NCBI GenBank assembly: GCA_003024785.1 | Contig: PUQB01000060.1 | Location: forward strand, 1-64,000 | DNA: 64,000 nt | Reading direction: 5' to 3' | From: Selaginella tamariscina | Taxonomy: Eukaryota; Streptophyta; Lycopodiopsida; Selaginellales; Selaginellaceae | The notes under the pieces: model-generated | Databases searched by the model: none | Told to the model about the DNA's origin: nothing | The model's input: the letters and a program-made list of their open reading frames with translations, nothing else | In this document: piece after piece, positions 1 to 35,299 of the stretch | How the letters are laid out: every line of letters starts with the position of its first letter | Position numbering within the stretch: the stretch's first letter is position 1 | Made by a program: the position numbers and the translations under genes

Positions 1-1045
1 ACTCAGTGAAAATCACTTGGTCGGCGAAATACCCACAGAGATTGGTCGCTTGCAGCATCTTGTCGAAGCCACTTTCTCTCGTAACAACCTCATTGGCTCC
101 ATACCGAGTTCCATTGTTAACTGCTCTAGGCTTGAGCGCCTCACTTCCATGGGGAACCGACACACGGGAGCTCTTCCATCTCAGATTGGATCTGTCAAGT
201 CACTCTTGGATGGTGTACAACGAGTTTACTGGAAGCATTCCAGCCGGGTTTGGAAACTGCACAAGCCTCTTCCACCTCTCTCTAGACCATAACAACATGA
301 GTGGAGAAATACCACCTGAGATTGGACACGCATCAAACTTGAGAGTTGTCCACTTTGGATACAACAATCTGGTAGGAAGCATTCCAAACTCTATCTTCAA
401 CTGCACCAACTTGGAGGATCTAGGACTGGGTTACAATAATCTAGATGGACACTTACTACGGAGCATAGGCGGTCTTTCGCATCTAAATGAGCTCGGACTC
501 ACTCACAATCGGTTATCTGGAGAGATACCGACGAACTCGGCAATCTCTCGAGTGTCACGTATCTGAGTTTAGCTAGCAATGCACTCACGGGTGCAATTCC
601 ACATTCCCTTGGAAGGCTTCAGCAACTTCAGATTCGTATCTGGGAGCAAATTCTCTGAGGTCAAATATACCGGTGGAGCTCTTCGATTGTCAAACCTTGG
701 TCTCTTTGGACCTCGCAGAGAACATGCTGAATGGTTCGATTCCTGCTGGGGTCAACAAGCTTCAACTGCTTGGCAGCCTGAATCTCAGCTCAAATCTACT
801 AATAGGTAGTATCCCGGTGAGCATTAGAAGCCTTACCAGATTGAGCAGCCTCGACCTTTCCCACAATAGGCTCATAGGTAGCATACCACCTTTGCACAAT
901 CTCAGCGGTTTGTCTGAGGCACTGATCTTTCTCATAATTCTCTTTCGGGATCCATTCCACCAGATATAGGGAGCTTGATGACAACAACAATCATCGATCT
1001 TGCTTTCAACAAGCTGTCTGGTATCATTCCTTTGTCAATTGGTGC
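1..1045 (+). pseudogene. LRR receptor kinase ectodomain fragment (inverted copy 0)
   Basis: Plus-strand LRR sequence of the plant extracellular type (repeated LxxLxLxxNxLxGxIP), with segments such as LSENHLVGEIP, NNLIGSIPSSIVNCSRLERL and SLDLSHNRLIGSIPPLHN. It is open from the window edge and matches the reverse complement of 21206-22247, so it lacks the N-terminus (off the window) and everything after the Copia insertion at 1046. The reading frame shifts near 200-240, near 545 and again near 640-680, so it cannot encode one protein. The family (LRR-RLK subfamily XII, FLS2/EFR-like) senses ligands at the plasma membrane. This copy has no kinase or membrane segment and is a relic. Confidence 0.85.
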
Positions 1046-1244
1046 TGTTGTGAAAAGGTGTTAAAGCAAGAGCCGAGCTGAATATCAACTAACCTATGTT
1101 TTTGTATTTCTGGATATTATTTATACAGTTTCCTTTATAACTATATATGGTAGTTCTCCATAAGTATATAGGCCTAAGCTATATATGGCCTAAACCATAT
1201 ATAACTGTTCTTCCAGCTTGGACTCCACGCTGGATATCTCAACA
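1046..1244 (-). repeat. Copia A 3' LTR (199 bp)
   Basis: Begins TGTTGTGAAAAGG on the plus strand and ends GATATCTCAACA, so read on the minus strand it is TG...CA. It corresponds to 21003-21200 of Copia B. Just inside it (1245-1260) the minus strand reads GGCTGAGTGGGAG, a purine-rich tract typical of Copia second-strand priming. The LTR contains a TATATAA-like segment and inverted CCATATATAG/CTATATATGG words that could fold. Confidence 0.9.
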
Positions 1245-1289
1245 CTCCCACTCAGCCGTGAGAGTTCAAGATGGTCATTCGAGACCGGT

Positions 1290-4200
1290 GTCGCCAGAAA
1301 CTATCCCTGCTCAAGGCCTTGGTCATAATATCTGCAACCATCTCGATAGTAGACACATGCTTGAGCTTGATGTTTCTGGCTTGAACCTCTTGTCGGATGA
1401 AGTGGTACTTCACATCACATGCTTGACTTTGTCATGATGTCTGGGGTTCTCTGAAGTAGCTATGGCACTAGTGCTGTCACAGTAAATTGTGATCGGCCTT
1501 GGAAATGAAATTCCCATGTCCTTCAGCAACTTCATCAACCACGTTGCTTCCTTGGCTGCCTCTGTTGCTGAAATGTACTCGGCCTCCATCGAGGAGAGTG
1601 CAATCACTCGCTGCAGTCTGCTCATCCAACTGATAAGCCCATCATCCAAAGAAACACATATCCTGAAGTGGACTTCCTGTCTCCCTGTTTCCTGCCCAAT
1701 CTGAATCTGTGAAACCCACTAGATCCATTACCATGTGATCTCCTGTAGAGCTCCCACTAGCTGAATATGTGAGACAAAACCCGACTGTGCCTTGCAAGTA
1801 TCGTAAGATACGTTTGACTGCTGTCCAATGAGCCTCTCCTGGATTCTCTACAAACTGGAAACCACTCCGACTGCAAAAGCCAAGTCTGGTCGAGTGGAAA
1901 TGGCTAGATATAACAAACAACCAACTATCTGCCTATAAGGAACCTGTGCCATGACTCGTCTCTCCTCCTCAGACGTCGGCTGTTGATCTTTTGAAAGTTG
2001 TGTGTGTACGTCCATGGGGGTGCTGACGGGGTTGTTGTCGGCCATGTCATACTTCTGAAGTATCTCTTGCACATAGTGTGCTTGAGATAGCTGAATCACC
2101 CCTGCAGCTCTATCCCGGAACACCTGAATGCCCAAACAATAGCATAGGTCGCCGGCTGCGAGATCTCAAACTGAGATCGAAACTGGTGTTCAAAGAATTG
2201 AACAAGCCGAAACTGGCTTGCAGCCATGATGTTGTCATCAACGTATAATGCCAGGTATGCAAAGTCCACTCCTTGCGAAAGACATATACGTTTCCATCTG
2301 CAGTGGACTTCTGAAACCGATGGAGGTGAGAAACCTGTCTACATGATCATACCAGGCTCGTGGTGACTGCTTCAAGCCATATAGGGCCTTTCGAAGACGA
2401 CAAACATTGTGTTCTGTCCTTGCACCACGAATCCCTCAGGCTGTGTAGTGTAGACTTCCTCCTTCAGCTCTCCATACAGGAAAGCAGTCTTTACATCAAG
2501 CTGGTGAACCTCCAGATTCAAGCTAGTTGCTATCTGAAGAATGAGACGAATGGAAGCCATCTTCACCACTGGTGAATACATATCAACTCCAGCGATTTGT
2601 GAGAATCCTCGTGCAACAAACCAGCCTTGTATCGAGTACTTCACCTGTGCATCCAGCTTCTTCTTGAATAGCCACTTGGTACTTACAGTGCGGCCGTGGG
2701 GAAGAGTAACAAGCTCCCAAACCTGGTTCTTGAGGAGAGAAGCATATTCCTCCTCCATGGCAGCCCTCCATTCTGCCGCCTCTTGTGATTGCATCGCCTC
2801 ATGCACTGTCCGGGGCTCCCGAGGATACCTGGAGGTGAAGAAGGAGGTTGAAGACTCATCAGCTTCTCTTGCCTTTCGTGACTTGTAGCTAATTCTCCCA
2901 CTTCTCGTGATTGTGTTGATGGGTCGGTGGATTAGGTACCTGCGGAGGTGCTTGCTGAAGTGGAGGAATCTCCTCCTCACTTTCGTGCTCCTCCTCACTC
3001 AGATCTGGATCTGCTGCAATCTGCAGTCTGGATCTTCCCCAATCCGCCCTGGATCAGGCCCATGTGCTGGTGGATCCTGTGGCTGCTCTTCCTCAAGAAT
3101 ATACCCGGATTAACTTGAACTGTAAACCTATCCTTGTAAAGCATATCCTCATTAAACTTAACGTCTCGGCTCACAACAATTTTCTGGTGAGTGGGATCGT
3201 AAAGCCTATATGCCTTGCTCTCATGGCAATATCCCACCATGATATACATGTTACTCTTCTGCTCCAACTTACGACGGAGTTCGTCCGGAACATGTGCATA
3301 TGCCAGGCACCCAAACACACGGAGGTGTTTCAAACTGAGCTTCCCAGTCCACCGGGTGAATGGAACTTCTCCACCAATGCTGCTTGCAGGAAGTCGATTC
3401 CGGATGTAGCTTGTTGCTTAAGGCCTCTGCCCAATAATTGAGCGGTGTTCCTGCATGCATAAGCATGCATCTTGTCGTCTCCACTAGAGTCGATTCATTC
3501 TCTCTCGCCACTCCATTTTGCTGAGCTGAGTATGGGGCTGTAAACTACTGCTGAATCCCAGATTCTTCGCACAACTTCTTGAGCACACTTGCTTGATACT
3601 CCCCACCTCTATCACTCCTAAGTACGCGGATTTTCAAATTCTGCCACACGTTTTCTGCAGCAATCTTATATAGCCAAAATTTCTGCTACTTCTGATTTGT
3701 TAATCAAGAATTTCACCACTGTGTAACGAGTATAATCATCTATAAACGTCACAAAATACCTCCTTCTGTTCAATGACTGAACATGCATTGGTCCACACAC
3801 GTCTGTGTGCACTAATTCTAGAGGTTGAGTGGTCTTACAGCAGATGCCCTTACTGGGGAACGGTTGCCTATGTTGTCTTCCAAAACAGCATGCCTCACAG
3901 AACTCAAGGTTGTCTCTAAGTACCTGAAAGTCTGAAAGCTGGTCCTGGTCCCAGCTACAGCTCGAATCGCTGCCTCGTTTGCATGTCCCAATCGTTGATG
4001 CCATCGTTGAAGAGTTGTGGAGAAGATCTTCTTCTTGGGTATCACCAATGTGGCGTCTAGCCTATAGTTCCCAGCATGTCTTTGGCCACGTGCTACTATG
4101 GTTCCTTGCTTGTCAGTGTAAGTGATCTTGTCCTTATCGATTGACCTTTCCAACCGGCATCTGCTATCTTCCCAACCGAGATAAGAGTTTCGCTGAGTGT

Positions 4201-5289
4201 GGGGACATAGTGAACCTGTCGAAGATCGACAATCTCACCGTTCTGGAGTTGAATCTCTACTGTCCCGACTCCTGCAATGCTCAATGGTCGATGATCTCCC
4301 GTGTAGACTCCTTCTCCCACTGGGATTGCCTGATATGTCTTAAAAGCGGCAAATACTGGAGTACAGTGAACATTGGCACAACTGTCCAACCAGAGGATAT
4401 TTTCTTCCTCGAAAGGACTGAGGTTAGTGGTTACCATGAGGGCCATCCGCTGATTGCCCTTGTTCTTCAGTTCGCTTGCTCGTGGTTTTCCTGCTGCCTT
4501 GTCCGGACAGCTCTTGGCAAAATGCCCCATCTTCTTGCAGTAGTTGCACGGTCCAAGCTTTGACGATGGAATGTCCTGCCTATTTGTGCTACTGCTACCT
4601 TTATAGTGTGAAGCACTGCTCCCACTCCTCACTGACTGTGGATTGAAGTTGGTTTTCTTTTCGAATTGGCTCGAAGTGAAGAGGACTTGAGAATGTCCCA
4701 CCGTACCGCTGGTTATGTCTGCTTGAGGATTTGGATCATGGTTGATGACTGCAGAATTAAGACATCCCTGATGTATTCTCCAGTGTCGTCTTGAGAGTCA
4801 CGTGGTCTGGCCTAGTCAAGGCCCCGAGAAGCACCGTGGTTTTGTCTATATCTGAAATGGTCTGTCCGAGAGCAGTGAGCTAGCAAGAATGGACTTCATT
4901 CTTCCAGGAACACAGATGCTGGTTCTGTGGGACCAAACTCGAGCTTAAAAAACTTTCCTTTCAGCGATACCACGGATCTCTCCTTCCGTGCCTGATTGCC
5001 AAAAATCGCCTTCAACTCTGTCCAATTCTCGGAAGCTGACTTGCTTAGATCTATGGTGATGCCTACCAAGCCCAATCCCCATTAGTGACAACGCTTTGTC
5101 ATGTCGAACCTGCCAATCTTCTGGGTTCGTTTGAGGTTTCACCTCACTACCATCTGCAATTCGTAGACAATTGTCACGCATCATAACAAACAAGATTTCC
5201 CGCTGCCAGTTCTCAAAGTTATGCCCATCAAAGACCGGAATTGGGATTGATTTGTGGCTTGTCGTCATGTTCTCAAGTATGTCTGTCAC
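1290..5289 (-). pseudogene. Copia A gag-pol, frameshifted
   Basis: Gag starts at 5289 (MTDILENMTTSHKSIPIPVF). A CCHC zinc knuckle follows (CNYCKKMGHFAKSCPDK, about 4540), then a protease-like WLDSCANVH where DSGA is usual. The integrase zinc region (WHQRLGHANEA; FCEACCFGRQ) and core (HTDVCGPMHV, FIDDYTRYTVV) lie at 3670-4000. Reverse transcriptase lies at 2200-2800 (QLDVKTAFLYGELKEEVY; YVDD active site near 2240) and RNase H at 1410-1650 (SSMEAEYISATEAAKE; CDSTSAIA). At least six frame breaks separate these, so no full polyprotein is made. Domain order identifies Copia rather than Gypsy. Confidence 0.9.
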
Positions 5290-5368
5290 TGACTAACTGT
5301 TCTTGAGGATATAACGTTCCACGAACTGCACTTGCTGCTTCCTATGACCCTTGAACTGCTGTTGTTCT

Positions 5369-5381
5369 GGCTCTGATACCA
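5369..5381 (-). other. Copia A primer binding site
   Basis: The minus strand reads TGGTATCAGAGCC directly next to the 5' LTR. This is the standard plant Copia site complementary to the 3' end of initiator methionine tRNA. Confidence 0.85.
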
Positions 5382-5500
5382 TGTTGTGAAAAGGTATTAA
5401 AGCACAAGCCAAACCGAATATCAACTAACCTATGTTTTTGTATTTCTGATACTATTTATACAGTTTCCTTTATAACTACATATGGTAGTTCTCCATAAGT
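5382..5500 (-). repeat. Copia A truncated 5' LTR
   Basis: Matches the first about 119 bp of the 1046-1244 LTR as far as CTCCATAAGT. It then changes abruptly to sequence that is also found at 29833. The break is therefore both the end of the inverted copy and the start of tandem unit A. Confidence 0.88.
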
Positions 5501-5767
5501 AACTACCTATATATAGAGGTATACGTCACAATCTAATTAACTCTTCCAGATTAGACAGTCTTGCTCCACTTCTTATTGAGCTTCTGAGACACAAGCAGCT
5601 TACGGAATATGTCTTACAGATACCATCTGTCTGTATGCGATATATATACACATGCATATACTCCCATCTAGTGATATAGATCAGTTTCGGAGTTGTAATG
5701 CTGTATATGTGTTATTAGAACCTTGCTAGTGCTTAACCTATGTGTAGTTTAAGGCATCCTTGTCCAG

Positions 5768-5848
5768 ATTACAGAAAGTTTCTCAATGCTAGATTCTAAA
5801 GAAGCAACTCAACAAAGAAAAGCCATTGATGCTATTGGTGAATTGAAG
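5768..5848 (+). pseudogene. Unidentified coding exon, unit A copy (shortened)
   Basis: An 81-nt open segment between an acceptor (CTTGTCCAG) and a donor (AAG/GTATGAAT). It reads ITESFSMLDSKEATQQRKAI and ends GELK. The unit B copy (30091-30207) is 117 nt, so this copy has lost 36 nt in frame. No other exons of the parent gene were found and I do not recognise the protein. It is probably a gene fragment caught in the duplicated block. Confidence 0.4.
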
Positions 5849-6619
5849 GTATGAATATGATAGGTTAACGAAGGGTTACTTTTCACAATCCTTTTAATCA
5901 TAATTAATTAAATTAATTATTTTAAAAGATTTTATATGCATTTTGAATATATAAATTAAAAGACCTTCAGAATTAATGCATTTCATCTATATACATGAGT
6001 TTGAATATATAATTTTTTTTTAAATACCCTTCATTTTTAATATTTATTTATTAATTAAGTTTTAATTAATTACTACTAATACAAAAGGGGGCGAAAGCGT
6101 TCCCCCCATTCTATATTGTGAACTGCTCTATCTTGGTTAAGAGATACGCCTTGTAGTTAGTTACGCTAAACTTTCACGCAGCCTCTCTTAATAAGATTTT
6201 AAAGTCAAAGTTTTAACTTTACAATCATGAATTAGATTAAACTGAAAAGGTTTAATTTTTAATTTTGATAAAATTGTATATTTTTTCCAAGTAAATATGA
6301 TGAAGAAGGATTTGATTATTTACTACATAGACATGTATATATTTTTAAATATATAAATATATTTTTTTTTAGAAACCCTCGCGCTGTATTAAAAAGACAC
6401 GTTACATTGTTATAAATTGACTGAACGTTTGTGTGTTCACATCTTACAAGCTACGCGTATGTGTCCTAATACGACAACCGTATTCAAACGCTGAATAAGT
6501 ATGTATGATCGACGCAAAATATAGTGTATGCTGTCATATGAGTGGCAATGCTATGCTTAGTTGACTTAATCAGAAATTTAATAGGTTTGAACGAAGGAGC
6601 TATGTCTTCTTCTTAGAAA

Positions 6620-6664
6620 CACATGGTGAAAGTCAGTCAAGTAGTGAAATTCTGTTATATAAAT
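6620..6664 (+). promoter_or_regulatory. GH3-like core promoter remnant with TATA box (unit A)
   Basis: TTATATAAATT at 6654-6664 is preceded by AGTCAGTCAAGTAGTGAAA. The same arrangement, with matching spacing, precedes the intact GH3 gene on the other strand (GGTCAAGTCATGAAA then CTATATAAC, around 12630-12660). The GH3 relic downstream therefore appears to have kept the core promoter of its parent. Activity is unproven. Confidence 0.45.
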
Positions 6665-6716
6665 TCGGTCGTATATATGCCTCGCAGTGAAATATTTAAT
6701 TCAAATTAAATGGATA

Positions 6717-6996
6717 CTGCAGTCGAGCAGTGGTACTTGGAAACATGCGGTATGCATGGGATACTGCCAAGGAGGAGTTTCAGAAGGCTACCATTCACTT
6801 CCCATAGTGATATAGATCCCTGTGCAGAAAGAATTGCATGGGAACGAGAGTGGGTACTTCAATTCTTGACATTGACAGGTGTTGATCAGCTAACTATTGT
6901 TCTTACGCTTCCGGCGGTGGCAAGCAGAAAGACCGACGGTTGCGATGCAGATCATAATCGAGTTGCAAAAGCTGCATCAAACAAGTGAATTTTATG
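6717..6996 (+). pseudogene. Decayed GH3 exon 1-intron-exon 2 relic (unit A)
   Basis: Plus-strand sequence reads CGMHGILPRRSFRRLPFTS then HSDIDPCAERIAWERE. It aligns to YGIYGIPSKEEFKKLPLAS and YSDIEPYVQRIANGDE of GH3 exon 1. The first intron is recognisable, followed by a decayed SSGTSGGKQK phosphate-binding segment and the exon 2 end (NRVAKAASNK) with its GTGA donor. Keeping introns shows a DNA-level copy rather than a retrocopy. It lies on the opposite strand to the intact GH3 gene, about 3.6 kb beyond that gene's stop codon, and runs directly into the hairpin at 6997. Confidence 0.75.
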
Positions 6997-7170
6997 AGCT
7001 CGTGAGGTTTCTTGAAGCAGTATGTTTCTATTATCGACTTTCTTACTGATAAACCTCAAAAGGGACAGATGGGGGAGAGGTTAACTTCAAGCGTGCTGCA
7101 TTCTGAAGATTACTAAACTGTCAGTAAGGACGTTGATAATAGGAACATACTGCTTTGGAATATATGAGCT
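6997..7170 (+). ncRNA. Putative GH3-derived hairpin RNA, MIRNA-like (unit A)
   Basis: Arm 1 (7015-7051) is sense GH3 sequence and arm 2 (7119-7155) is antisense GH3 sequence. The two 37-nt arms pair at 36 positions, 4 of them G:U, with one T-C mismatch. An outer helix of 8 bp (6997-7004 with 7163-7170) flanks a small internal loop. The loop (7052-7118) is also antisense GH3. Bases 7135-7155 are identical to the plus strand at 11396-11416, so an RNA from arm 2 is fully complementary over 21 nt to the GH3 mRNA at the KQYVPII codons. A 21-mer starting at 7134 would begin with U. Size and pairing are like a young plant MIRNA or hairpin-siRNA precursor. Expression and processing are unknown. Confidence 0.5.
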
Positions 7171-7887
7171 TCATTGAGTAAACTACCCTTTCAGTCTCAG
7201 GTACGTTCGTGGTGTGCTTTTATTTCATTGCGTAATACATAATTTTGTGTGGTTTGTTCGGTATGGTGAAGACAAAGCACGTCTTATATTTATTTATATA
7301 TAGCGGCGGTGGGTTAGGAAACACATGCGTACGTGTCCGTGCAGCACGCTCACACCTCAAGACAAGCTCAAGCAGCTCTGTATTATGCACATTATTTAAA
7401 CACAAATGATATTTATTTTATAATGAATTTTTCTTTCACAGAGTTTCATAGCATGAACCAAGGATTAGGCAAAGACAGGACTCATCACAAACGCACATAA
7501 TATGAATCGAATATTAAATTTTTCTTCTTCTTTCATTATTATGGAATTGCAGCGTTCTAGTCACGACGAAGGTGGCGACAGCGATGACAATGGTGTTGTT
7601 GGTGCAACAGGCAGTGATGATGCAACTCAGTGTTAAATCCAAAAAACAAGCACTATCATTAGTAACTAAAGCGCGCAATAGTAATACTAATTAGAGAACA
7701 TATCACTGAAATATTTAATTTTTCAACGTAACAATGGGATATTAAATCTAGAATATACATATACATACATACATACATAACATGAGTCTAGAAATGAGAA
7801 ATAATATGAAAGAGAATTGAGTAACATAATCAGAAATTAAAATATTTATTTATTTATTTGTTTTTTTATTAATCATTATTTATATTT
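7171..7887. other. Intergenic stretch shared by both units
   Basis: Matches about 31513-32221 with many small indels. I see no credible gene. A 31-codon acidic open frame at 7541-7636 is shifted in the other unit. Short ACAT repeats occur at 7763-7780. Confidence 0.6.
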
Positions 7888-8695
7888 AGGAAACTTCATA
7901 TATAGCTCTGAAACTTATTGTATTTACATATATACTTTGCCAAGGTTTAAATTTACTCTTATACCTTTGAAAAGCTTCAATCCTTGTATTTGAATTTTTA
8001 TATTAATAAACTTAAATTATAATATATTAAGAATGAAATAAAAAATTTATTAATTCTTAAATCCTAAAATGTCATAATAAAAATATTAAGAAAAATAGTT
8101 ATATTATATGTAATCTATATGTTTAGTTGATTTCATTTTTGAAATTAAATATAAATTAATCATAAAATTTCATGATTTAAAAACAAAACTATTTTAGTTT
8201 AATTTTAAGAGAAATTTCATATATATCATATACATTCCTTGAAATTTTAGATTTACATAATTACCCATGATTCAATTTAAAACTTTATAGGCTTTAAAAT
8301 TAAACTAAAAAATATTTTCTTAAAAATCAAGAATAATTCATAATTAATTGATATGTTATTATATTTAGTTCTAAAATGCAATCAATTAAACACATATACT
8401 TCAATATAATATAATTATTTTTAAAAAAAATATTATTTCTTAACATTTATTATTATAACATTTTAAATATTTAACCATTAATAAATATTATTTAATTTAA
8501 TTCTAAATATGTTATAAGTTAAATACATAATTTTATTAATATTATTATTTAAAATTTACAATACAAGATTTAAATGTTTTTCAAAAGTATAAATATAAAT
8601 TTAAAACTTTCATAAAGTATATTTGTAAATTCAAAATTTTAAAAAGTATATATGTAAATATGATAAATTTAAGTTGATATATATGAAATTTTCCC
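7888..8695. mobile_element. AT-rich TIR element, MULE/MITE-like, 808 bp
   Basis: The first about 120 bp (AGGAAACTTCATATATAG...) are an imperfect inverted copy of the last about 120 bp (ending ATGAAATTTTCCC). The element is flanked by a perfect 9-bp repeat, TTTATATTT, at 7879-7887 and 8696-8704. A 9-bp target duplication with long terminal inverted repeats is characteristic of Mutator-like elements. No transposase is present, so it is non-autonomous. Unit B retains only the left end (from about 32222). Confidence 0.6.
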
Positions 8696-10609
8696 TTTAT
8701 ATTTTTGTGATCAATTATAACAATTGTTAATTATTCTTATTTGTAGCAATCTTAAATTAGTTACTCATTATATTTATAATAATTTTAAGTCAGTTCTTAA
8801 TTTCACTTCTGCTCATTCTTATTAATATTTTGCTTATTATCTATACTTTAAGTTTTTATTAGAATATTTATGATACTTTCATTTAGATCTTCTTATATGT
8901 ATCTACATCATAATAAAACAAAATAAAATATTCTTATTTATTATTAAGACCTACTTTCCACTAGCGGGTGGTTAATTGCCTCAACCAATTAAAATAAAAA
9001 AATTATTTTTCTACCATTGGTTTAGTTTTCCATTTGCTAGTTACAAGATTTTTACAGCTTCTTTTTTTACTTTGGTGACACATCTTTTTATAACAAGTGT
9101 AAGTAGTTAAAAACTTATGGAGTATCCAAATTTTAAATTGAGGTTATCATTTAAAATTAACAATTTTATTTTGCATTTTACTATTTAGGTTAACGAGAAA
9201 GTGTAAATAAAAAATATGTAATGTTATTTTATTATTATGGTACGTTATGTTTATGCACTTAATGTAAATATGTAATGTAATGTAAGTACGTGGATACACT
9301 ATAAATAAATTAGTAAATTAATTTTTGACTTGATACTCAAGTAAAAATTTCCGTTTTTGTAATGATTATAACCGATAATATAGTATTTTTTTTAATAACT
9401 TATAATTTATTTCAATCTTAAATTTAATTGAAGATATAAAAATAAAAATAATTTAAATTTAAATTTTAAAACTTAAAATTTTAATAATATTTTCTATTTA
9501 TGCAACTCAATACTTAACTTTTCGAGGCATATGCCCTTGGGTTAATCTTAATTAAATTAATGAAATCCAATATTTTATTAATACAGTCCACACATGTAAC
9601 TTAAAACTTAATAATACAATATTTTTTAATTTTCTTTATCATTCTCATAACAGTAAAGTATATATAAAAAAATAATTTTTGATTCAATAGTTTAATTTAG
9701 AATAGGTTTTATTTTTTGTTAAGAAATTATAATAATAAACTTTTAAAATATTCTAATAATATTCAAAGATATATTCTAATTGGATTAATCTAGAGTTTAG
9801 TTAGGAGTACTAGTTCAATTTTAATTTATTTGAAAAAAATAATATTATAGAAAATTATTAAGAATATTCTATATTTAAGGTATGATAAAATATATATGAA
9901 AAAAGAATATATCTTAATAAATTATTTATACTCTTAAACTTAAACCAAAAAAATTATAATTGTCAAAGTTGTCCAATCAATCTCAAAAATTTTAACAATT
10001 TAAATTAATAATGGTTAAAATAACACTTTAACAATTATCTTTAGTGTATTCGTCTTTATCTAGAAGTTATTGACAAGATCAATGGTTTAATATTAATATT
10101 CACGTATGTATTTAAATCACGTGTGTATATATATGTGTGATGGTAAAAAGGCTTATAATAATATATATTATGGACCTTATATATCGATAGAAAATCATAT
10201 TTTACATTTTTGGACCTTATATTAAAATTATTTATTTATTTATTTGTCTTTTCTATACTCGAGACTGACACACCGTACGTGCCTATGTATACATAGAATA
10301 ATGTTATAAACAACATTGCAATTCAGATAAAAATTCTATGATATCTAGTGAAGGTTTTTTATGAATTTATTTTAATTTATTTTCAATATTGCAAGTCAAA
10401 ATAAGAAGTCAACTTACATACACTATATGTTGTTCACTTGAACAACAATTCTTCCAGGACACACGCGCACACGCGTGCACATCTACGTCATCCTCCACCA
10501 CCAATTACGTAACGATATACCCCACTGACCTAATGCTCCATTATACGCGTAGAAGAATAAATTTTTTCATTAATAAATATTTACAAAAAGAATGATCTCT
10601 AATAGCTAA
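8696..10609. other. AT-rich intergenic DNA
   Basis: Very AT-rich, with no open frame of note. About 8.7-9.8 kb has no counterpart in unit B. From about 9.84 kb it again matches 32.5-33.2 kb of unit B, up to the end of the GH3 gene. It probably includes the GH3 3' flank. I see no recognisable terminator or gene. Confidence 0.6.
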
Positions 10610-12468
10610 TTAAGAGCTCTTCGATCGAACAGACATAACAACATTAGACTCGAAAATCCTCAAAATGGTAGGATTAGTCACCAACCTCGGCGTCTTGTAC
10701 TGTCCGATACTCCCTTGTCCACTAAATACCACGTGGTTAACTATCCTGTCAAAAGTTCCACTCTCTACTACCTTGATCTCTAAGGGTCCGATACTGCCTT
10801 CCCTCCGGTTCCGGTTGTACACCGTGGAGAGGAAGCTCTCCAATACGTTACTGCAGTACCGTACGTTCTCAGACTCTGCACCAATCCAGTTCGGCTCCAC
10901 CGGGTTCCCATCTGCAGTGGAGAGCTCCCAGTAGACAACATAGTGACCAGGTTGAGAACACAGATCAACCCTGCTGGTGTAATCCAACAGTCTGAACTTT
11001 GGCAGCACTGATGCTCCATTCGCAACTGCATTATGGAGCTCGAATTCGTCAGTCTTGTCAGTGTCCACGCTCAGTAGAACGCCCGCCCGTCTCATAAACG
11101 CAAACTGCGGGGCACTGTTGTGGAAGCTTGCGACCTTGAGCACGTCTCCGACACGGTATCGATACAGCCCGCCTTTGGTAGTCACCACCAGCTCGTACTC
11201 GTGGCCGAGCTTCACGTCCGCTAGCTCGACCAGAGTCCCGTCCGGCGCTAGAAACTCGTAGAAAGCGAAACAAGGGAAGACAGTGTAGAGAACCTGAGAG
11301 GGATCGCAGATGGGCGAGAGGTTGACTCCGAGCGTGCTGCATTCCGAAGAGGCGTACAGAGACGAAGCTATTGGTAATCCGTCAGTATAGAAGTCGATAA
11401 TAGGAACATACTGCTTCATGGAGCCTGTAACTATGGAATGTGCCAGGTTCACGTTCGGAAACAACCGCCGTATGATCCCCCGCCAAGACTGTTTTGAACA
11501 CTCCCACCGGATGGCGTTAGCCAGCACCGGGTTTGGCCTCAGTATGTTGTTCACTGCATCCTTTACTGAGAGGTCCGAGACAATGTTGGTGTTCACTGAG
11601 CCCCTCTCTATATCGTCGGATATCTCCCTCCAGTACTTACGGAGCTCCTTCATGCCCCGGACAAACGTCGAGGCGAAGACTGCCCCGATAGACGACACCT
11701 CCTGGACTGGGCGAGCCCACACAGGAGGTGACAGTAGCTTGTTTGTTGGTAATCCACACACACTATAACTTCATCTGGACTGGTGTATCCAGACTCCGGG
11801 TCTCTCTTCCGGTTCCGAAATGCAGGGCTGGTGAAATACCCGCTCAGTCCGGAGCACGTTATGACTCCGCCGGACGTTATTCCCGGCTTCCTGACGTATA
11901 TGAATTGCAGGGTCTTGCCTTTGCTAGCGTATGGTGCTTGTCTGCGATGCCACAGTGAGTTTCAGTCAAAAGATGAACATTTATATATTCATTAAAAACT
12001 CACTTGTTCAATGCAGCTTTAGCGACTCGGTTAAGCACGACGAACTCGGCATCATAGCCCTCGGCCTTGGGAAAGAGCTTCTGCTTCCCACCGGATGTAC
12101 CAGAACTGCAGTCAACGACAGCTAGTTAGCAAAGCCAGTCAACGAAAGTCGAGGGTCAAGATGAAATACCTGGTAAGCATCTCATGCACCCTGCTACCCA
12201 GTATAGTGCCACTCTCGTCCCCATTGGCTATTCTTTGTACATATGGCTCTATATCGCTGTAGGAAGCGAGCGGTAGCTTCTTGAATTCTTCCTTGGACGG
12301 TATACCGTAGATACCATACTTTTCCAAGTAGTCTATACCACTATTTGCCTGCAGTATCCTTTGAAGAGCTTCGTTCTGTACAGTGGACACATCTTTGGTT
12401 ACTCTCTCTACAAACTCGAGTGCTGCCTCGTCAGATGCAATGTTTTCGAGAATCCCCTTGGCTTCCAT
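10610..12468 (-). CDS. GH3: GH3 family acyl-acid amido synthetase, copy A (one frameshift)
   Basis: Three exons: 12170-12468, 12004-12105 and 10610-11941, with 64- and 62-bp introns in correct phase. GH3 enzymes adenylate auxin, jasmonate or benzoates and join them to amino acids in the cytosol, controlling hormone level. Seen here: N-terminus MEAKGILENIASDEAALEF, ATP-loop SSGTSGGKQKLFP across exon 2, VGAVF-type SSIGAVFASTFVRGMKELRK, YASSECSTLGVNL, ELVVTTKGGLYRYRVGDVL, DKTDEFELHNAV, GHYVVYWEL and C-terminal LEIKVVESGTFDRIVNHVVF with GQYKTPR. Expected product about 577 residues, normal for the family. A single missing C at about 11705 (compare 34328) breaks the frame in exon 3. The substrate cannot be told from motifs. 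A hairpin 3.4 kb beyond its 3' end carries 21 nt complementary to 11396-11416. Confidence 0.92.
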
Positions 12469-12626
12469 ACCAATAGCAAACTTCTTATGTCACACTGGAA
12501 CTGAACAAGCCTTGTATGTAACAGTTGCGAATGTAACCCCAGAGATGAACTAATTCCTTAGAACGATTTTCTCTCTCTCTCTTTTTTTGGTGTTGTGTTT
12601 GACAGTGTGTTGGGGATGGCTCATGT

Positions 12627-12665
12627 GTGTTATATAGTAAAACTTTCATGACTTGACCGAGCCAA
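12627..12665 (-). promoter_or_regulatory. GH3-A TATA box and upstream element
   Basis: The minus strand has CTATATAACAC about 165 bp upstream of the start codon, with GGTCAAGTCATGAAAG just upstream. The leader between TATA and ATG has a pyrimidine/purine run (CTCTCTCTCT on the plus strand near 12570). No TGTCTC auxin element was seen close by. Confidence 0.5.
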
Positions 12666-12799
12666 TGGAGCTTCCAGGAAGACCTAGCTCCTTCCGTTGT
12701 TGACAAATTAAGGTTTAATTTGCGCTTCCAGAGTTTCATCGCTAGTATTCTACATAGGAGGCTGCGAGGCATAGCTATGATGATCACTAAAGGATTAAA

Positions 12800-13500
12800 C
12801 AAGATTAAATTACCGGAAGATTCAATGTTTGAATAGGGTTGTCGTATCTAAGTTTTTGGCTACTAGCAGATGTCACATGGCAGGTTCTTGTTCAGTTTCT
12901 GGGGTAATACTAAACCTGACTAACAGAACCAATCTTTAGAATTTTGTAAAGAGTTTAGGGTTTTACTGTTTAACGTGTGAAAATCATGTGCAAACTCAGC
13001 TTCCCTTCTACAGTCAGAACGTTCTAATTTTAGTTGTCATTCGTAACTTCTGTGTAGAAATTTCTTTAAATTTTAACATTAATTGAAAAAGTTTACTCAC
13101 CGGGGTTCGATCCCTGGTCCCTCCACTTTTATTTTCTTTTATAGTAAAATTATGAAAAACTTAAATTAAAGTTAACTCAAGCTAACTTCCGAAGAACCCT
13201 AATATGGTGTTCGGCAGGATTCGATTTCTTTTTCTCCGATATTGCAATGGAGCATAGATTGCAGAATTTATCAAAGAGAATTCAATCAGCAAAGGTACAT
13301 AGTATACCTGTCTGCGTGTGTGGACACACATCGTAGACATAAACTGCGTATGTCCCTGTGTGCTGAAACATGTAAAATACATCAGACGAAAGTGCAGGAG
13401 ATGTGTGTGGCGTGTGCGTGTGTGATATAGAACGAAAAGTATAGCAACTTTGTGTATACGGCTATATAGTCATGTATTATATATATATATATACATTTCC
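12800..13500. other. Intergenic, no gene seen
   Basis: Matches 35.5-36.48 kb of unit B with large indels. It contains a tRNA T-arm-like word at 13098-13128 that is decayed in unit B, and short TG-rich tracts. No coding region was supported. Confidence 0.5.
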
Positions 13501-13670
13501 AATGGTATATAACATTGGAAATACATCAGGCCAAAGTGGATGCAATATCAGGAACGAAGCAGTTTTCTCAACAACGAAATAACCCCCATCCCAAGTGTCG
13601 GATTTTACCCCTCTACCAGTTATCAACGTAGAGCTGGATGCTGGAAATTGGCAGGTATGCGTGTGGGACA
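13501..13670. other. Conserved exon-like block of unknown identity (unit A)
   Basis: Nearly identical to 36481-36650 while surrounding DNA differs more. The minus strand is open (SSSTLITGRGVKSDTWDGGY, FVVEKTASFLILHPLWPDVF) after a possible acceptor TTTCCAG. The plus strand also offers an open reading ending at a donor (TTGGCAG/GTATGC). I cannot tell the coding strand and do not recognise the product. Confidence 0.3.
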
Positions 13671-14378
13671 TAGTTGTATGGATGAAAGAACTCAGTGGAG
13701 TTCAGCATTTTCCTTCGTGTTGATGCTGTTATCTGGGTGTGTGTTTGTGATGTATATATGTATGTGTGTTGTACTACGTGACTTACAAAAGCTAAAGGAG
13801 GATGAAAACGAAGGCACATTGGGGCTTTTTCGCTTCTTTTTGGAGACTAACCACGAACGGTTGAATGTTTTATCAAGGAATAAGGTAATTGAAACTATTT
13901 CAGTAAATTAGAAGGCTAATATAGTTTCACTTTGGTGGACGATCTTGCCGCCGGATGTCACTTCTGTAGAGGACAATCAACGAGTGAGTTAGAGATCTAC
14001 ATATGAAATAAACATTTTAATATTTTTATATAAGAATATTCTCTCTTTCATAGAGTGTGCCTGGACTAGAGGATATGGGTTCAAACCCGGTTTCTTTATT
14101 TTTATTTGCCTTGCCTTCAAAGCTTCCAGATCTTCCAGCATACATAAGCTGGACAGGTACACACCATACACACAATCTGTACGTTACTTAATAGCATGAG
14201 TTTAATTTATGTCATCCAGGCATACATAGATACATCCATGTGTACACTCTTTAAATTCAATTATAGGATCAATGCGCGACATATCATCCATAGCAAATAC
14301 AGGTTTTGAAAGGACTGAAAAAAATAAGAAATATGTTAATTGTTATTTTATTTTTGATTTTTTAAACTTGTTTTGAAG

Positions 14379-14710
14379 AAATTACACCGGTGAAACCGTC
14401 TAGTGTAACTCCAGCACCGTCCAGAATGATAACAAGGGTATTCATTTTCTATCCCGGTGGCTAAAAATGGAATCGACACCTATGAACGTTGAAGATAGCA
14501 AAGGTCTCTCTCTCTCACACACGCACGCACGCACGCCCGCACACACTCAGAGCTCGTATTGTATTTGTTAGGAAAACAGAAGAGTCCACCACCGCCACCA
14601 CCATTACCACCTTCTTCTTCACCACTGTTTAATACAAGCAATTCTTAAAGTTATCAGAAGATGAGCCTTCCTCGTCTGCACCTTCACAAGCATCTCTACC
14701 TCATATTGGT
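14379..14710. other. Conserved exon-like blocks, one proline-rich (unit A)
   Basis: 14379-14465 is nearly identical to 37481-37570. On the plus strand it follows an acceptor-like TTTGAAG and reads ITPVKPSSVTPAPSRMITRV. 14580-14708 reads KSPPPPPPLPPSSSPLFNTS then, after a one-base shift corrected in unit B, QLSEDEPSSSAPSQASLP before a GTAAG donor. This suggests a plus-strand gene with a proline-rich region, now fragmentary. The minus strand of the first block is also open. Family unknown. Confidence 0.3.
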
Positions 14711-14713
14711 AAG

Positions 14714-14761
14714 CTTGTGTGTGTGTGTGTGTGTGGTGTGTGTGTGTGTGTGTGTGTGTGT
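14714..14761. repeat. (GT)n microsatellite
   Basis: Interrupted GT run directly after the proline-rich block. The unit B counterpart (37687-37742) is a longer, uninterrupted (GT) run. Confidence 0.9.
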
Positions 14762-15157
14762 TGGTGGGGTGGGGTGCGTGTGTGCAAGTGTTACACACGT
14801 AGAGTCTAATTTTAACAATGTAGCACCACTTATAGTCCAGGCATCAAATTAAGAAAGGTTTGGCTTGTTAATGGTTTTTTAATTCAACATTTTTTTGCGG
14901 TTTATAAACATGTTCGTATTTAAATATATATGAGGCCAGCCATGTGCAATGAGTGCAGGGGGAGGATTGAAGGGACCAGCAACTATGAACTAACAACTGA
15001 ATCTAATATTAACCACCACCTTTTTTAAAGTCTCTCCACATGGTTGCAACTGTTGGTTTAATCATTTTATAGAACTAAAGCAAAGCATAAATTGAAGGCA
15101 CATTCCCTCATCAGTCTTATACACATTTGGAATGGCAATGCAAACATTTGCCTGATT

Positions 15158-15245
15158 ATGTTCGCTCAAATAAGAGCAGATGGTGGATGGATTGATGGAG
15201 TGCATGCAACTTACTACGGAAGGAGTGATGCCTCAGGAACCAACA
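15158..15245 (+). pseudogene. Expansin first-exon fragment (unit A)
   Basis: Reads MFAQIRADGGWIDGVHATYY then GRSDASGTN, stopping at a GTAAGT donor. GGW..(V/A)HAT(Y/F)YG..DASGT is the N-terminal signature of plant expansins, secreted wall-loosening proteins. No downstream exon with the GACGYGN cysteine region is found before the receptor-kinase gene, and the upstream signal-peptide region (ATGGCAATGCAAACATTTGC, then a stop) is disrupted. A 5' fragment only, repeated at 38157-38244. Confidence 0.6.
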
Positions 15246-15485
15246 GTAAGTATAAGCTCCAAGAGGTCTTGTAAGCATAAAAATAAAACTTTATATATGT
15301 GCGTGTGCAAATAAGTAAAAAGCTTTAACTCAAGAAATGGATCAGAAATGGCTTTCAACTGGGGGACCAGTGATAACTCCTTGAGATAGCAAAATCACTA
15401 GCTGCTTTAATATCATTCTCTATATTTAAAAACTACCATTTAATAATCATATACATATAGATACTTAGATGCACGAGCGTGCACC

Positions 15486-16023
15486 CTAGCTTTCTTCATG
15501 CAAAGACAGTATTTTGTGAATGATCCCCGCCACATCTTTCATAGTCGGCCTCCTCGATGGAGACGTGTCTGTGCAAATGATGCCCAGCTTCAACATTGCG
15601 GCCATTTCGTCCATAAACAGGTTGGTTTCCACTGCGGATAATGTAGGATCTAGTACATCTATTGCACTTGTGACAGACTTTACCCAGCTTGGTAAGCTCA
15701 CCTCACCCCCAGATTCCTCACTTATTGGGGTTTTACCGGTTACCATCTCCAGAACAAGTACCCCGTAGCTGTACACATCGCCCATAGTGGTCGCCATCCC
15801 AGAGTACGCATACTTTGCAAAAACATATACATGAAGAACAAGTTGAAGAAACTTAACACTTTTGGTGCACAATAGCCGATGGAGCCTCTGAAAACAGATT
15901 GTGTCACTGCTCCCTCGTCAGTACCATGCAGCAGCCTTGCTATCCCGAAATCTGCAACATGTGCTTCAAAATCTGTGACCAGAAGCACGTTGGATGGCTT
16001 CAGATAAGAGATACACATGCACC
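15486..16023 (-). pseudogene. LRR receptor kinase, kinase C-lobe fragment (unit A)
   Basis: Encodes [20 protein letters not shown] (with the DFG magnesium-binding motif), [28 protein letters not shown] and SRRPTMKDVAGIIHKILSLH, ending in TAG at 15486. Compared with unit B, 900 bp (38998-39897 there) are deleted between 16004 and 16005. This removes the catalytic HCD loop, the whole N-lobe, the membrane segment and the last LRRs, and fuses the kinase fragment to the LRR exon. The intron donor near 15865 is also lost. Copia B follows at 16024. Not functional. Confidence 0.9.
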
Positions 16024-16219
16024 TGTTGATATGCAGATGGAGTCCAAGCTGGAAGAACAGTTATATATGGTTTATGCCATATATAGCTTAGCCATATATA
16101 CTTATGGAGAACTACCATATATAGTTATAAAGAAATTGTATAAATAGTATCCAGAAATACAAAAAACATAGGTTAATTGATAGTTGGTTTGGCTTGTGCT
16201 TTAACACTTTTTCACAACA
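16024..16219 (+). repeat. Copia B 5' LTR (196 bp)
   Basis: Starts TGTTGATATGCAGATGG and ends TTTTTCACAACA. It contains TATAAATAG at about 16140-16148, the likely promoter TATA. The primer binding site abuts its end. Confidence 0.9.
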
Positions 16220-19200
16220 TGGTATAAGAGCCAAGAACAATAGCAGTTCAAGGGTCATAAGAAGTAGCAAGTGCAGTTCGTGGAATGTTATCCTCAAGAA
16301 CAATTAATCATGACAAACATACTTGAGAACATGACGACGAGTCACAAATCAATCCCAATTCCGGTCTTTGATGGGCACGACTTTGAGAACTGGCAGTGGA
16401 AAATCTCGTTTGTTATGATGTGTGACAATTGTCTACGAATTGTTGGTAGTGAGGTGAAACCTCAAATGAACCCAGAAGATTGACAGGTTCGACATGAGTC
16501 ACTAATAAGGATTGGGCTTGGTAGGCATCACCACCATCACCTGGATCTAAGCAAGTCAGCTTCGAGAATTGGACAGAGTTGAAGTGATTTTTGGTAATTA
16601 GGCACGGAAGGAGAGATCCGTGGTATCGCTAAAAGGAAAGTTTTTTAAGCTCGAGTTTGGTCCCACAGAACCAGCATCTGTGTTCCTTGGAAGAATGAAG
16701 TCCATTCTTGCTCAACTCACTACTCTCGGATAGACCATTTCAGATATAGACAAAACCATGGTGCTTCTAGGGCCTTGACTAGGCCAGACCACATGACTCT
16801 CAAGACGACACTGGAGAATACATCAGGGATGTCTTAAGCTTTAGTCATCAACCATGATCCAAATCCTCAAGCAGACATAACCAGTGGTACGGTGGGACAT
16901 TCTCAAGTCCTCTTCACTTCAAGCCAATTCGAAAAGAAAACCAACTTCAATCCACAGTCAATGAGGAGTGGGTGCAGTGCTTCACACTATAAAGGCAGCA
17001 GTAGCACAAATAGGTAGGACATTCCACTGTCAAAGCTTGGACCATGCAACTACTACAAGAAGATGGGGCATTTTGCCAAGAGCTGTCCGAACAAGGCAGC
17101 AGGAAAACCACAAACAAGCAAACTAAAGAACAAGGGCAATTAGTAGATGGCCCTCATGGTAACCACTAACCTCAGTCCTTTTGAGGAAGAAAATATCCTC
17201 TGGTTGGATAGTTGTGCCAATGTTCACTATACTCAAGTATTTGCTGCTTTTAAGATCCCAGTGGGAGAAAGAGTCTACACGGGAGATCATCAACCATTGA
17301 GCATTGCAGGAGTCGAGACAATAAAGATTCAACTCTAGAACTATGAGATTGTTGACCTTCGACAGGTTCACTATGTCCCCGCACTCAGCGAAACTCTTAT
17401 CTCGGTTGGGAAGATAGCAAATGCCGGTTGGAAAGGTCAGATCAATAAGGACAAGATCACTTACATTGACAAGCAAGGAACCATAGTAGCACGTGGCCAA
17501 AGACATTCTGGGAACTATAGGCTAGACACCACATTGGTGATACCCAAGAAGAAAATCTTCTCCACAACTCTTCAACAATGGCATTAATGATTGGGACATG
17601 CAAACGAGGCAGCAATTCGAGCTGTAGCTCGGGACCAGGACAGCTTTCAGACTTTCAAGTATTTAGAGACAACCTTGAGTTCTGTGAGGCATGCTGTTTT
17701 ATAGGCAATCGTTCCCCAGTAAGGGCATCTACTGTAAGACCACTCAACCTCTAGAATTAGTGTAGACAGACGTGTGTGGGCCAATGCATGTTCAGTCATT
17801 GAACAGAAGGAGGTATTTTGTGACGTTTATAGATGATTATACTCCTTACACAGTGGTGAAATTCTTGATTAACAAATCAGAAGTAGCAGAAATGTTTTGG
17901 CTATATAAGATTGCTACAGAAAACGTGTGGCAGAATTTGAAAATCCGCGTACTTAAGAGTGATAAGGTGGGGAGTATCAAGCAAGTATGCTCAAGAAGTT
18001 GTGTGAAGAATCTGAGATTCAGCAACAGTTTATAGCCCCATACTCAGCTCAGCAAAATGGAGTGGTGGAGAGAATGAATCAGACTCTAGTGGAGACGACA
18101 AGATGCATACTTATGCATGCAGGAACACCGCTCAATTATTGGGCAGAGGCCTTAAGCACAGCCAGCTACATCCGGAATTGACTTCCTGCAAGCAGCATTG
18201 GTGAGAAATTCCATTCACCCGGTGGACTAGGAAGCTTGTTAGTTTGAAACACCTCCGTGTGTTTGGGTGCCTGGCATATGCACACGTTCCGACGAACTCC
18301 GTCGTAAGCTGGAGCAGAAGAGTAACATATATATCATGGTAGGATATTGCCATGAGAGCAAGCATATAGGCTTTACGATCCCACTCACCAGAAAATTGTT
18401 GTGAGCCAAGATGTTAAGTTTAATGAGGATATGCTTTACAAGGATAGGTTTACAGTTCAAGTTAATCTGACGGTGTATATTCTCGAGGAAGAGCAGCCAC
18501 AGGATCCACCAATACATGGGCCTGGGATAGGTTTATAGTTCAAGTTAATCCGACAGCGTATATTCTCGAGGAAGAGCAGCCACAGGATCCACCAGCACAT
18601 GAGCCTGATCCAAGGCGGATTCGGGAAGATCCAAGACTGCAGATTGCAGCAGATCCAGATCTGAGCGAGGAGGAGCACGAAAATGAGGAAGAAATTCCTC
18701 CATTTTAGCAAACACCTCCGCAGGTACCTAATCCATCCCGACCCATCAACACAATCACGAGAAGTGGGAGAATTAGTTACAAGTCACGAAAGGCAAAAGA
18801 AGCTGATGAGTCTTCAACCTCCTTCTTCACCTCTAGGTATCCTCAGGAGCCCCGAACAGTGCATGAGGCGATGCAATCACAAGAGGCGACAGAATGGAGG
18901 GCTGCCATGGAGGAGGAATATGCTTCTCTCCTCAAGAACTAGGTTTGGGAGCTTGTTACTCTTCTCCACAGTCGCCGCACTGTAAGTGCTATTCAAGAAG
19001 AAGCTGGATGTGCAGGGTGAAGTACTCTGATACAAGGCTCAGTTTGTTGCATGAGGGTTTTCACAAATCGTTGGAGTCGACTTATATGAGACGTATTCAC
19101 TAGTGGTGAAGATGGCTTCCATTCGTCTCATTCTTCGAATAGCGATTAGCTTGAATCTAGAGATTCACCAGCTTGATGTAAAGACTGCTTTCTTGTATGG

Positions 19201-19778
19201 AGAGCTGAAGGAGGAAGTCTACACTACACAGATTGAGGGATTCGTGGTGCAAGGACAGGAACACAATTCTTGTCGTCTTCGAAAGGCCCTATATGGATTG
19301 AAGCAGTCACCACGAGCCTGGTATGATCATGTAGACACCTTCATTGGTTTCCATAAGTCCACTGCAGATGGAAACGTATATGTCTTTCGGCAAGGAGTGG
19401 ACTTTGCATACCTGGCATTATACATTGATGACAACATCATGGCCGCAAGCTAGTTTCGGCTTGTTCAATTCTTTGAACACTAGTTTCGATCTCAGTTTGA
19501 GATCTCTGCAGCCGACGACCTGTGTTATTGTTTGGGCATTCAGGTGTTCCGGGATAGAGTTGTAGGGGTGATTCAGTTATCTTAAGCACACTATGTGTAA
19601 GAGATGCTTCAAAAGTACAACATGGCCGACAGCAACCCCGTTAGCACCCCCATGGACGTACACACACATCTTTCAAAAGATCAACAACCGACATTTGAGG
19701 AGGAGAGATGAGTCATGGCACATGTTCCTTATAGGCAGATAGTTGGTTGTTTGTTATATCTAGCCATTTCCACTTGAC

Positions 19779-20358
19779 TGTCAAGCCACGATCCAGGAAC
19801 CAGGAAGAGAACGGATTCCAAGGACATGAAGGCTTGACTCAGGAGTAGGAGAGCAGGACAGGAACTAGGAATAGGAACAGGACGGATCTAGGAGCAAGAC
19901 AGGATCAGGATAGGATCCGGGAGCAAGACAGAAAGGCGCAAGACAGGATCCAGGAACAAGACAGAAGTAGGACAGGATCCAGGAGCAAGATAGGAAACAG
20001 GAGCGAGACAGGAGCAGGACAGGAAACAAGACAAGACGAGATTGATCGTAGTAAGACTGGTGTTGATAATAACTGATTGTATAACAATTAAGTCGAAGCT
20101 TTTATGCTCACAACTCCAAGAGCTAATCTAGGCATGAGTGCTAAAAGTGGTTGCATGCATGCAAAGTGACTGCATGCATGCAGAGGCTAAGATGAGTCCA
20201 CATGTCCCTTATCCTCTAGGCATATCCTGTGGCATATCCTGTAGGAATATCCTGCAATCATATCTTGTGTCCGGAATCCTGGTAGGAATATCATGTAGGA
20301 AAGTTTTGTAACTCATATCCTATATCCAGAATTATGTATCCTGTATCGGGTCATGACA
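19779..20358. mobile_element. Solo LTR nested in Copia B, 580 bp
   Basis: Begins TGTCAAGCC and ends GGTCATGACA (TG...CA), flanked by a perfect 5-bp duplication TTGAC at 19774-19778 and 20359-20363. Copia A has the uninterrupted site (minus strand at about 1886). No internal retroelement sequence remains, so it is a solo LTR made by LTR-LTR recombination. It carries a purine-rich minisatellite in its first half. Confidence 0.85.
19797..20045. repeat. Purine-rich minisatellite inside the solo LTR
   Basis: About 250 bp of degenerate short units built on AGGA(A/G)CAGGA and CAGGATCCAGGAGCAAGA. The strand is almost all purine. There is no conserved spacer/repeat alternation. Confidence 0.8.
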
Positions 20359-21002
20359 TTGACCAGACTTGGCTTTTGCAGTTGGAGTGGTTTCCAGGTT
20401 TGTAGAGAATCCAAGAGAGGCTCATTGGACAGCAGTCAAACGTATCTTACGATACTTGCAAGGCACAGTCGGGTTTTGTCTCACATATTCAACTAGTGGG
20501 AGCTCTACATGAGATCACATGGTAATGGATCTAGTGGGTTTCACATATTTAGATTGGGCAGGAAACAGGGAGACCAGGAAGTCCACTTCATGATATGTGT
20601 TTCTTCTGGATGATGAGCTTATCAGTTGGATGAGCAGACTGCAGCGAGTGATTGCACTCTCCTCGATGTACATTTCAACAACAGAGGTAGCCAAGGAAGC
20701 AACGTGGTTGATGAAGTTGCTGAAGGACATGGGAATTTCATTTCTGAGGCCGATCACAATGTACTGTGACAGCACTAGTGCCATAGCTACTTTAAAGAAG
20801 CCCAGACATCATGACAAAGTCAAGCATGTCGATGTGAAGTACCACTTTATCCAACAAGAGGTTCGAGCCAGAAACATCAAGCTTAAGCATGTGTCTACTA
20901 TTGAGATGGTTGCAGATATTATGACCAAGGCCTTGAGCAGGAATAGTTTCTGGTGACACCGGTCTCGAATGATCATCTTGAACTCTCACGGCTAAGTGGG
21001 AG

Positions 21003-21200
21003 TGTTGAGATATCCAACGGAGTCCAAGCTGAAAGAATAGTTATATATGGTTTAGGCCATATATAGCTTAGGCCGTATATACTTATGGAGAACTACCATA
21101 TATAGTTATAAAGGAAACTATATAAATAGTATCCAGAAATACAAAAACATAGGTTAGTTGATATTCAGCTTGGCTCGTGCTTTAACACCTTTTCACAACA
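21003..21200 (+). repeat. Copia B 3' LTR (198 bp)
   Basis: Starts TGTTGAGATATCCAACGG and ends CCTTTTCACAACA. Preceded by the polypurine tract at 20994-21002 and followed by the second GCACC. Confidence 0.9.
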
Positions 21201-29832: not shown

Positions 29833-30090
29833 AACTACCTATATATAGAGGTATACGTCACAATCTAATTAATTCTTCCAGATTAGACAGTCTTGCTCCA
29901 CTTCTTATTGAGCTTCTGAGACACAAGCAGCTTACGGAATATGTCTTACCTGTCTGTATGCGATATATATACACATGCATATACTCCCATCTAATGATCT
30001 ACATCAGTTTCGGTGTTGTAATGCTGTATATGTGTTATTTGAACCTTGCTAGTGCTTAACCTATGTTTAGTTTAAGGCATCCTTGTCCAG

Positions 30091-30984: not shown

Positions 30985-31018
30985 GTTAGTCAAGTCGTGA
31001 AATTCTGTTATATAAATT
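30985..31018 (+). promoter_or_regulatory. GH3-like core promoter remnant with TATA box (unit B)
   Basis: TTATATAAATT at 31008-31018, preceded by GTTAGTCAAGTCGTGAAA. It is the same arrangement as upstream of the GH3 gene and of the unit A relic. It lies about 340 bp upstream of the hairpin stem. Confidence 0.45.
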
Positions 31019-31057
31019 CGGTCGTATATATGCCTTGCAGTGAAATCTTTAAATAGA

Positions 31058-35290: not shown

Positions 35291-35299
35291 GGAGCATAC

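Follow-up and report, generated by a model that had tools for sequence, protein, structure and literature searches.

Does the inverted repeat within a decayed copy of a GH3 gene, found in a 64,000-nucleotide stretch of Selaginella tamariscina DNA (the whole stretch analyzed, hereafter the window), represent a young MIRNA gene whose product is directed against GH3 itself? An initial annotation of the window suggested that the repeat could make such a small RNA. We propose, with a probability that we place at roughly 0.6, that it belongs to a young plant MIRNA family that originated when GH3 was duplicated in inverted orientation and that is predicted to silence GH3. The hairpin under study and its neighboring GH3 gene (GH3 A) form unit A, and a second such pair in the window forms unit B (Table 1). 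Searches covered the window's own assembly (300,702,823 bases in 1391 contigs), where only the best candidates were scored, so that the counts reported are lower bounds.

Structure of the hairpin and its likeness to GH3

The two arms had been claimed to pair at 36 of 37 positions when G:U pairs are counted, which we confirm, the sole exception being 7039/7131. Folding of 6990-7180, which had been suggested as a check, gave -75.4 kcal/mol, whereas 200 shuffled sequences averaged -41.8 (sd 3.4; z -10.0) and none of them folded equally low. The minus strand of the same hairpin region is also predicted to fold (-53.8, z -6.9). The extent first given for the hairpin, 6997-7170, is essentially right, except that pairing in the predicted fold reaches slightly past it. 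Structural criteria described for MIRNA genes include a duplex of 20-24 nt whose 3' ends overhang by 2 nt and which has at most five mismatches, no asymmetric bulge of more than 3 nt and a precursor of at most 300 nt (PMC12594335). With ends and overhangs assumed, the predicted duplex of unit A agrees with these criteria: it contains no mismatches and two G:U pairs in 19 bp, within a hairpin of 165 nt. Rfam yielded no match across the window at gathering scores and none at E ≤5 over 6900-7300.

GH3 A, as delimited by homology, consists of three exons on the minus strand (12468-12170, 12105-12004 and 11941-10610), and a 1-nt deletion near 11706 shifts its frame. The PDB chains nearest to the exon 3 frame at 10610-11770 are GH3.6, GH3.5 and GH3.8, followed by GH3-1, GH3.15, GH3.12 and JAR1; the first three we take, partly from their PDB names, to be auxin-conjugating (group II) enzymes. 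The decayed partial copy is on the plus strand, ~3.4 kb past the 3' end of GH3 A. That such a copy exists had been claimed initially. It matches GH3 in exon 1, at the exon 2/intron 2 junction and in exon 3, the last in both sense and antisense orientation by blastn, with the sense piece at 7005-7049 followed by the same region inverted at 7066-7155. Because the exon 2/intron 2 junction is included, the source of the copy would be genomic DNA and not spliced RNA.

The DNA upstream of the copy also resembles GH3. A GH3-like TATA region had been noted there, and the segment that contains it can be aligned to the upstream region of GH3 A, both ending in TATATAA (score 47, z 6.0; none of 300 dinucleotide shuffles scored equally high). 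With the upstream region of the unit A hairpin as the only query and that of GH3 B left out, similarity was found for four of six GH3 upstream regions, the other three being those of C900_128k (z 6.1), C449_869k (z 7.3) and C900_165k (z 5.4, with 1 of 300 shuffles equally high); it was absent for C449_942k and C449_1052k. The TATA box is located ~340 bases 5' of the hairpin, a distance that would be compatible with transcription from a captured promoter. Further upstream, ~560 bases from the TATA box, is an interspersed repeat of ~200 nt at 5894-6090 that is perhaps SINE- or MITE-like and has at least 34 matches on other contigs among the 42 matches listed (best 40 of 924 candidates scored).

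Table 1. Coordinates of the features in the window, with the basis for each.
Feature	Position	Strand	Basis
GH3-promoter-like segment ending in TATA box (TTATATAAAT, 6655-6664)	6574-6663	+	Local alignment
Decayed GH3 exon 1 copy, sense	6706-6853	+	blastn to 12365-12209, 72.8%, E 4e-18
GH3 exon 2/intron 2 junction copy, sense	6955-6993	+	blastn to 12033-11995, 84.6%
Hairpin arm 1, GH3 sense	7015-7051	+	Fold, pair table; GH3 exon 3 sense match at 7005-7049
Predicted star strand	7018-7038	+	Register within arm 1
Hairpin loop, mostly GH3 exon 3 antisense	7052-7118	+	7066-7155 matches 11307-11416
Hairpin arm 2, GH3 antisense	7119-7155	+	Fold, pair table, GH3 alignment
Predicted mature small RNA UGAUAAUAGGAACAUACUGCU	7134-7154	+	Paired register with the fewest changes (29 compared, 15 loci); 5'-U
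Predicted target site, with expected cleavage at 11404/11405	11395-11415	-	Pairing score 0.5 (one G:U)
GH3 gene, unit A, 3 exons, frame broken	10610-12468	-	Homology, Pfam GH3 domains
Unit B hairpin, MFE -68.0; small RNA 31476-31496	31345-31509	+	Homology, fold
Unit B GH3, several frame-shifting indels; target site 34019-34039	33236-35096	-	Homology

The high-copy repeat at ~5894-6090 could be taken to favor a MITE-like transposon hairpin whose likeness to GH3 is accidental. We regard that reading as extremely improbable: the hairpin and its flank match the GH3 promoter and exons 1 and 3 as well as the exon 2/intron 2 junction, and the listed matches to the hairpin and to 6640-7000 are all on contigs C949, C900, C1060 or C449. 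A transposon origin of the hairpin was rejected on these grounds. The origin first suggested, an inverted duplication that took the GH3 promoter along, is supported by the alignments and shuffles and is consistent with the tree described below. We propose that a single inverted duplication of GH3 took in the promoter, exon 1, the junction between exon 2 and intron 2 and a portion of exon 3, and that an inverted exon 3 piece joined to this copy would have created the foldback now seen behind a GH3-like promoter.

The hairpin family and its rate of change

Unit A (5500-16005) matches 29832-38997, i.e., unit B, piecewise. Over 5500-7200 the two units differ by ~1-4%, like other parts of the units, which taken alone is weak evidence. 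All five substitutions between A and B at paired stem positions preserve pairing, another, at position 7039, which is unpaired in A, creates a pair in the fold predicted for B, and unit B is without 7172-7178 at the stem base. The divergence between A and B is 7-12% in 7200-8043 and 9808-10400 and ~1-4% in 5500-7200 and 13221-16005, a mosaic suggestive of gene conversion or of constraint that varies along the units. Elsewhere in the window, 1-5501 and 16099-22247 carry the same long stretch in inverted orientation, with 91-95% identity in three pieces, and their translations indicate Copia-like reading frames and receptor-kinase fragments.

At least 15 loci homologous to the hairpin were found, ten on C449, two each on C949 and C900 and one on C1060, and 11 of the 15 keep the full foldback. 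The C900_160k locus is 97.5% identical to unit A over 5500-7800 and its adjoining GH3 coding sequence is 100% identical, so that it may be the other haplotype and the independent loci may number 14. By alignment, 0 or 1 duplex positions are unpaired in 11 of the 15 loci, the 1-nt insertion of 988k being uncounted. Arm 2 is missing from 929k; the loop and upper stem are missing from 874k, 1056k and 955k, and among these only the predicted fold of 1056k still pairs the duplex. Most of the duplex part of arm 1 is gone from 955k, 988k has an additional base inside the small RNA, and the small RNA is altered in 1005k and 1138k. The cluster at C449:869k-1139k holds at least ten hairpin loci, six of them with the full foldback, and three GH3 genes. 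At C449:1021047-1021182, 136 bases match 6640-6774 (81%), with no hairpin match nearby among the matches listed; this is perhaps a sixteenth, truncated member of the family.

To compare rates of change, each locus was masked outside its BLAST-homologous range and parsimony changes were counted on a tree built from the flank, with the duplex defined as columns 7016-7036 together with 7134-7154 and rates expressed per occupied cell across the 15 loci. Changes per cell were 9/588 in the duplex, 15/390 in the upper stem, 18/328 in the lower stem, 33/764 in the loop and 333/7897 in the flank. The duplex thus changes about one-third as fast as the flank, the loop and the remaining stem. Compared with the other stem, the difference gives a Fisher p of 0.0015 (cells are not independent), and only 648 of 100,000 sets of 42 columns drawn at random from the 98 in the stem were equally low. 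The register beginning at 7134, which was fixed before the comparison, turned out to be the slowest of 29 along the stem, with nine changes (neighbors 11). Arm 2 alone has its minimum at 7134 (four changes), and arm 1 alone has its minimum (three changes) two to three bases off, with five changes at 7134. Relative to flank windows the slowness is moderate, as 487 of 20,000 random pairs were equally slow. Between unit A and C449_914k, none of the 42 duplex positions differ, compared with 109 of 622 in the flank (binomial 0.0003); P ranged from 0.0003 to 0.087 when A was compared with ten C449 loci and from 0.004 to 0.23 in the comparisons of C1060, so that some are not significant, and all of them are mutually dependent. 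Conservation of the whole stem was rejected, because slow change is limited to the duplex and the upper stem is near the flank rate. Among 11 hairpins no compensatory change on both sides of the stem was found, so that a conserved sequence is supported and not independently maintained pairing. Local gene conversion could contribute to the slowness of the duplex.

These rates bear on two other readings. The locus could be an inverted repeat from which several Dicer-like enzymes cut mixed 21-24-nt siRNAs and no one defined miRNA, with GH3 silenced post-transcriptionally or via DNA methylation. The stems of A and B, ~37 bp long and containing no more than one mismatch, would suit such processing, and complex siRNAs are described for most of the gene-similar foldback loci found earlier (PMC1790633). 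Slow change, however, is restricted to one 21-nt register with the upper stem changing nearly at the flank rate, and 874k and 1056k, which are without the upper stem, still keep 39 and 40 of the 42 duplex bases of unit A. We consequently consider an siRNA locus unlikely. A dead, untranscribed pseudogene repeat spread passively by segmental duplication would account for the decay of several hairpin copies and for the GH3 copies that are broken in the assembly, but it would not predict a duplex that changes more slowly than flank, loop and remaining stem, nor a TATA region (6641-6705) with 21 changes in 753 cells when 6300-6640 has 158 in 2957 by the same parsimony count; it appears to us distinctly improbable.

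The exon 1-2 stretch of 14 of the 15 hairpin loci (that of 988k is too short) and of seven GH3 genes was used to build a tree, which was rooted at the midpoint with no outgroup and has supports from 0.23 to 1.0. Hairpins and GH3 genes are separated by a long branch with support 1.0, and both are split into a C449 group and a C949/C900 group, with the C1060 hairpin in the latter. These parallel splits suggest that the hairpin was probably born once, before the clusters separated, and was later co-duplicated with its GH3 target. GH3 A and the three C449 copies have dS of 0.27-0.29 and dN/dS of 0.13-0.14, which indicates that the target protein was constrained for much of that time. More recent constraint on GH3 looks weaker, as dN/dS is 0.28-0.30 between GH3 A and GH3 B and 942k and 1052k differ by ten nonsynonymous and two synonymous changes. 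Frame-shifting indels are found in five of six distinct GH3 sequences (A, B, C900_128k, C449_1052k and C449_869k), and C449_942k is open almost to its end with a different C-terminus. The deletion near 11706 in GH3 A is also found in C900_165k, whose coding sequence is 100% identical and may be the other haplotype. The indels could be either real or assembly errors. Decay is apparently in progress for several hairpin and GH3 copies.

The predicted small RNA and GH3 target sites

The stretch 7135-7155 is identical to 11396-11416, as originally reported, and since the gene is on the minus strand it is antisense to GH3. A 21-mer starting at 7134 is likewise fully complementary to GH3 apart from a G:U pair at position 1. 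The 5'-U is found in all 14 loci that retain that position, and the same-strand base of GH3 A is C, which suggests that the U was probably gained in the hairpin family. This U forms a G:U first pair with the star strand as well as with the target. The 5' end of the arm 2 strand is weaker than that of the arm 1 strand (-0.3 vs. -2.3, with the same artificial cap). As the strand with the weaker 5' end is favored as guide, the asymmetry rule would favor the use of the arm 2 strand.

A search with PF03321 gave 29 matches, which were grouped by position into at least 12 GH3 loci. Sites for the 21-mer 7134-7154 were scored with 1 for a mismatch and 0.5 for a G:U pair, both doubled at positions 2-13. 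All seven GH3 genes of the local clade (two on C949, two on C900 and three on C449) contain a site with a score of 0.5 (a single G:U) or 1.5 (an additional mismatch at position 17), and the best score in the fetched DNA of the five other GH3 loci (C593, two on C302, C870 and C582) was only 9 to 10.5. Genome-wide, 34 sites matched 19 nt of the small RNA with at most two mismatches, compared with two for a reversed-pattern control; 30 fall in hairpin arms or in GH3 genes of the local clade and four are elsewhere (C14, C680, C1137 and C1250). Twelve of the 34 are exact over the 19 nt, eight in hairpins and four in GH3 genes. Judging from the coordinates, a hairpin locus lies ~2-12 kb past the 3' end of each of the seven GH3 genes in the local clade, on the other strand. 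For the C1060 hairpin, which is 1.6 kb from its contig end, no GH3 match was among those listed. Excess conservation of the target site in GH3 was not seen: it has two differences in 45 nt, and 329 to 369 of 1167 windows were equally low.

Based on these features, we propose that a Dicer-like enzyme would cut the stem to release a 21-nt duplex, that the arm 2 strand, with its 5'-U and weaker-paired 5' end, would enter Argonaute, and that the loaded strand would then guide cleavage of GH3 mRNA between 11404 and 11405. Since the promoters of hairpin and target have a common ancestry, and the two were duplicated jointly as a convergent module, the small RNA would provide feedback that increases as GH3 is induced or gains copies.

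Precedents and significance

The closest precedent is MIR163 of Arabidopsis, a locus that originated when SABATH methyltransferase genes were duplicated in inverted orientation, that is located near their cluster and that captured part of the founder promoter (PMC5388894, PMC1790633) and likewise targets an enzyme that modifies small molecules (PMC1790633). In the present case the target is GH3 instead of SABATH, the product is predicted, from sequence alone, to be 21 nt and not 24 nt long, and there are at least 15 loci rather than one. On sequence evidence, the hairpin family would work like a MIR163-type gene. For miR824-AGL16 and other young Arabidopsis MIRNA genes, stronger conservation of the miRNA region than of the remaining arm sequence has been treated as indirect evidence of function (PMC1790633). 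The hairpins here have the same pattern; the earlier comparison, as described in that source, was of foldback arms with genes, whereas here 15 paralogous foldbacks of one genome were compared with one another. Drift and death, perhaps the commonest fate of new MIRNA loci according to the same account (PMC1790633), fits the decayed hairpin copies. In rice, a degradome target of an osa-miR172d-5p variant is a GH3-family mRNA (PMC6337123), so that it shares its target with the small RNA predicted here; the variant is a member of a conserved miRNA family, and the part of PMC6337123 that concerns it does not mention an origin from GH3. Neither the small RNA sequence nor that of its star was found by literal search in the main texts of the papers covered. 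A GH3-derived MIRNA gene was likewise not among the literature matches listed, a statement that applies to those matches and is not a claim of absence from print.

The family is unusually well populated beside its GH3 targets. It is possible, if somewhat doubtful, that the GH3 gene and the convergent MIRNA gene derived from it form a self-limiting amplification module, co-amplified in at least two clusters, in which each GH3 copy would bring its own promoter-matched brake and the brake would have outgrown its target on C449. If the small RNA acts as proposed, a family of hormone-conjugating enzymes would be restrained by a small RNA that it had itself given rise to. With many copies at varied stages of decay in one genome, the birth, stabilization and death of MIRNA genes may be traced with internal controls, and the family could show whether new MIRNA genes buffer the tandem amplification of their targets.
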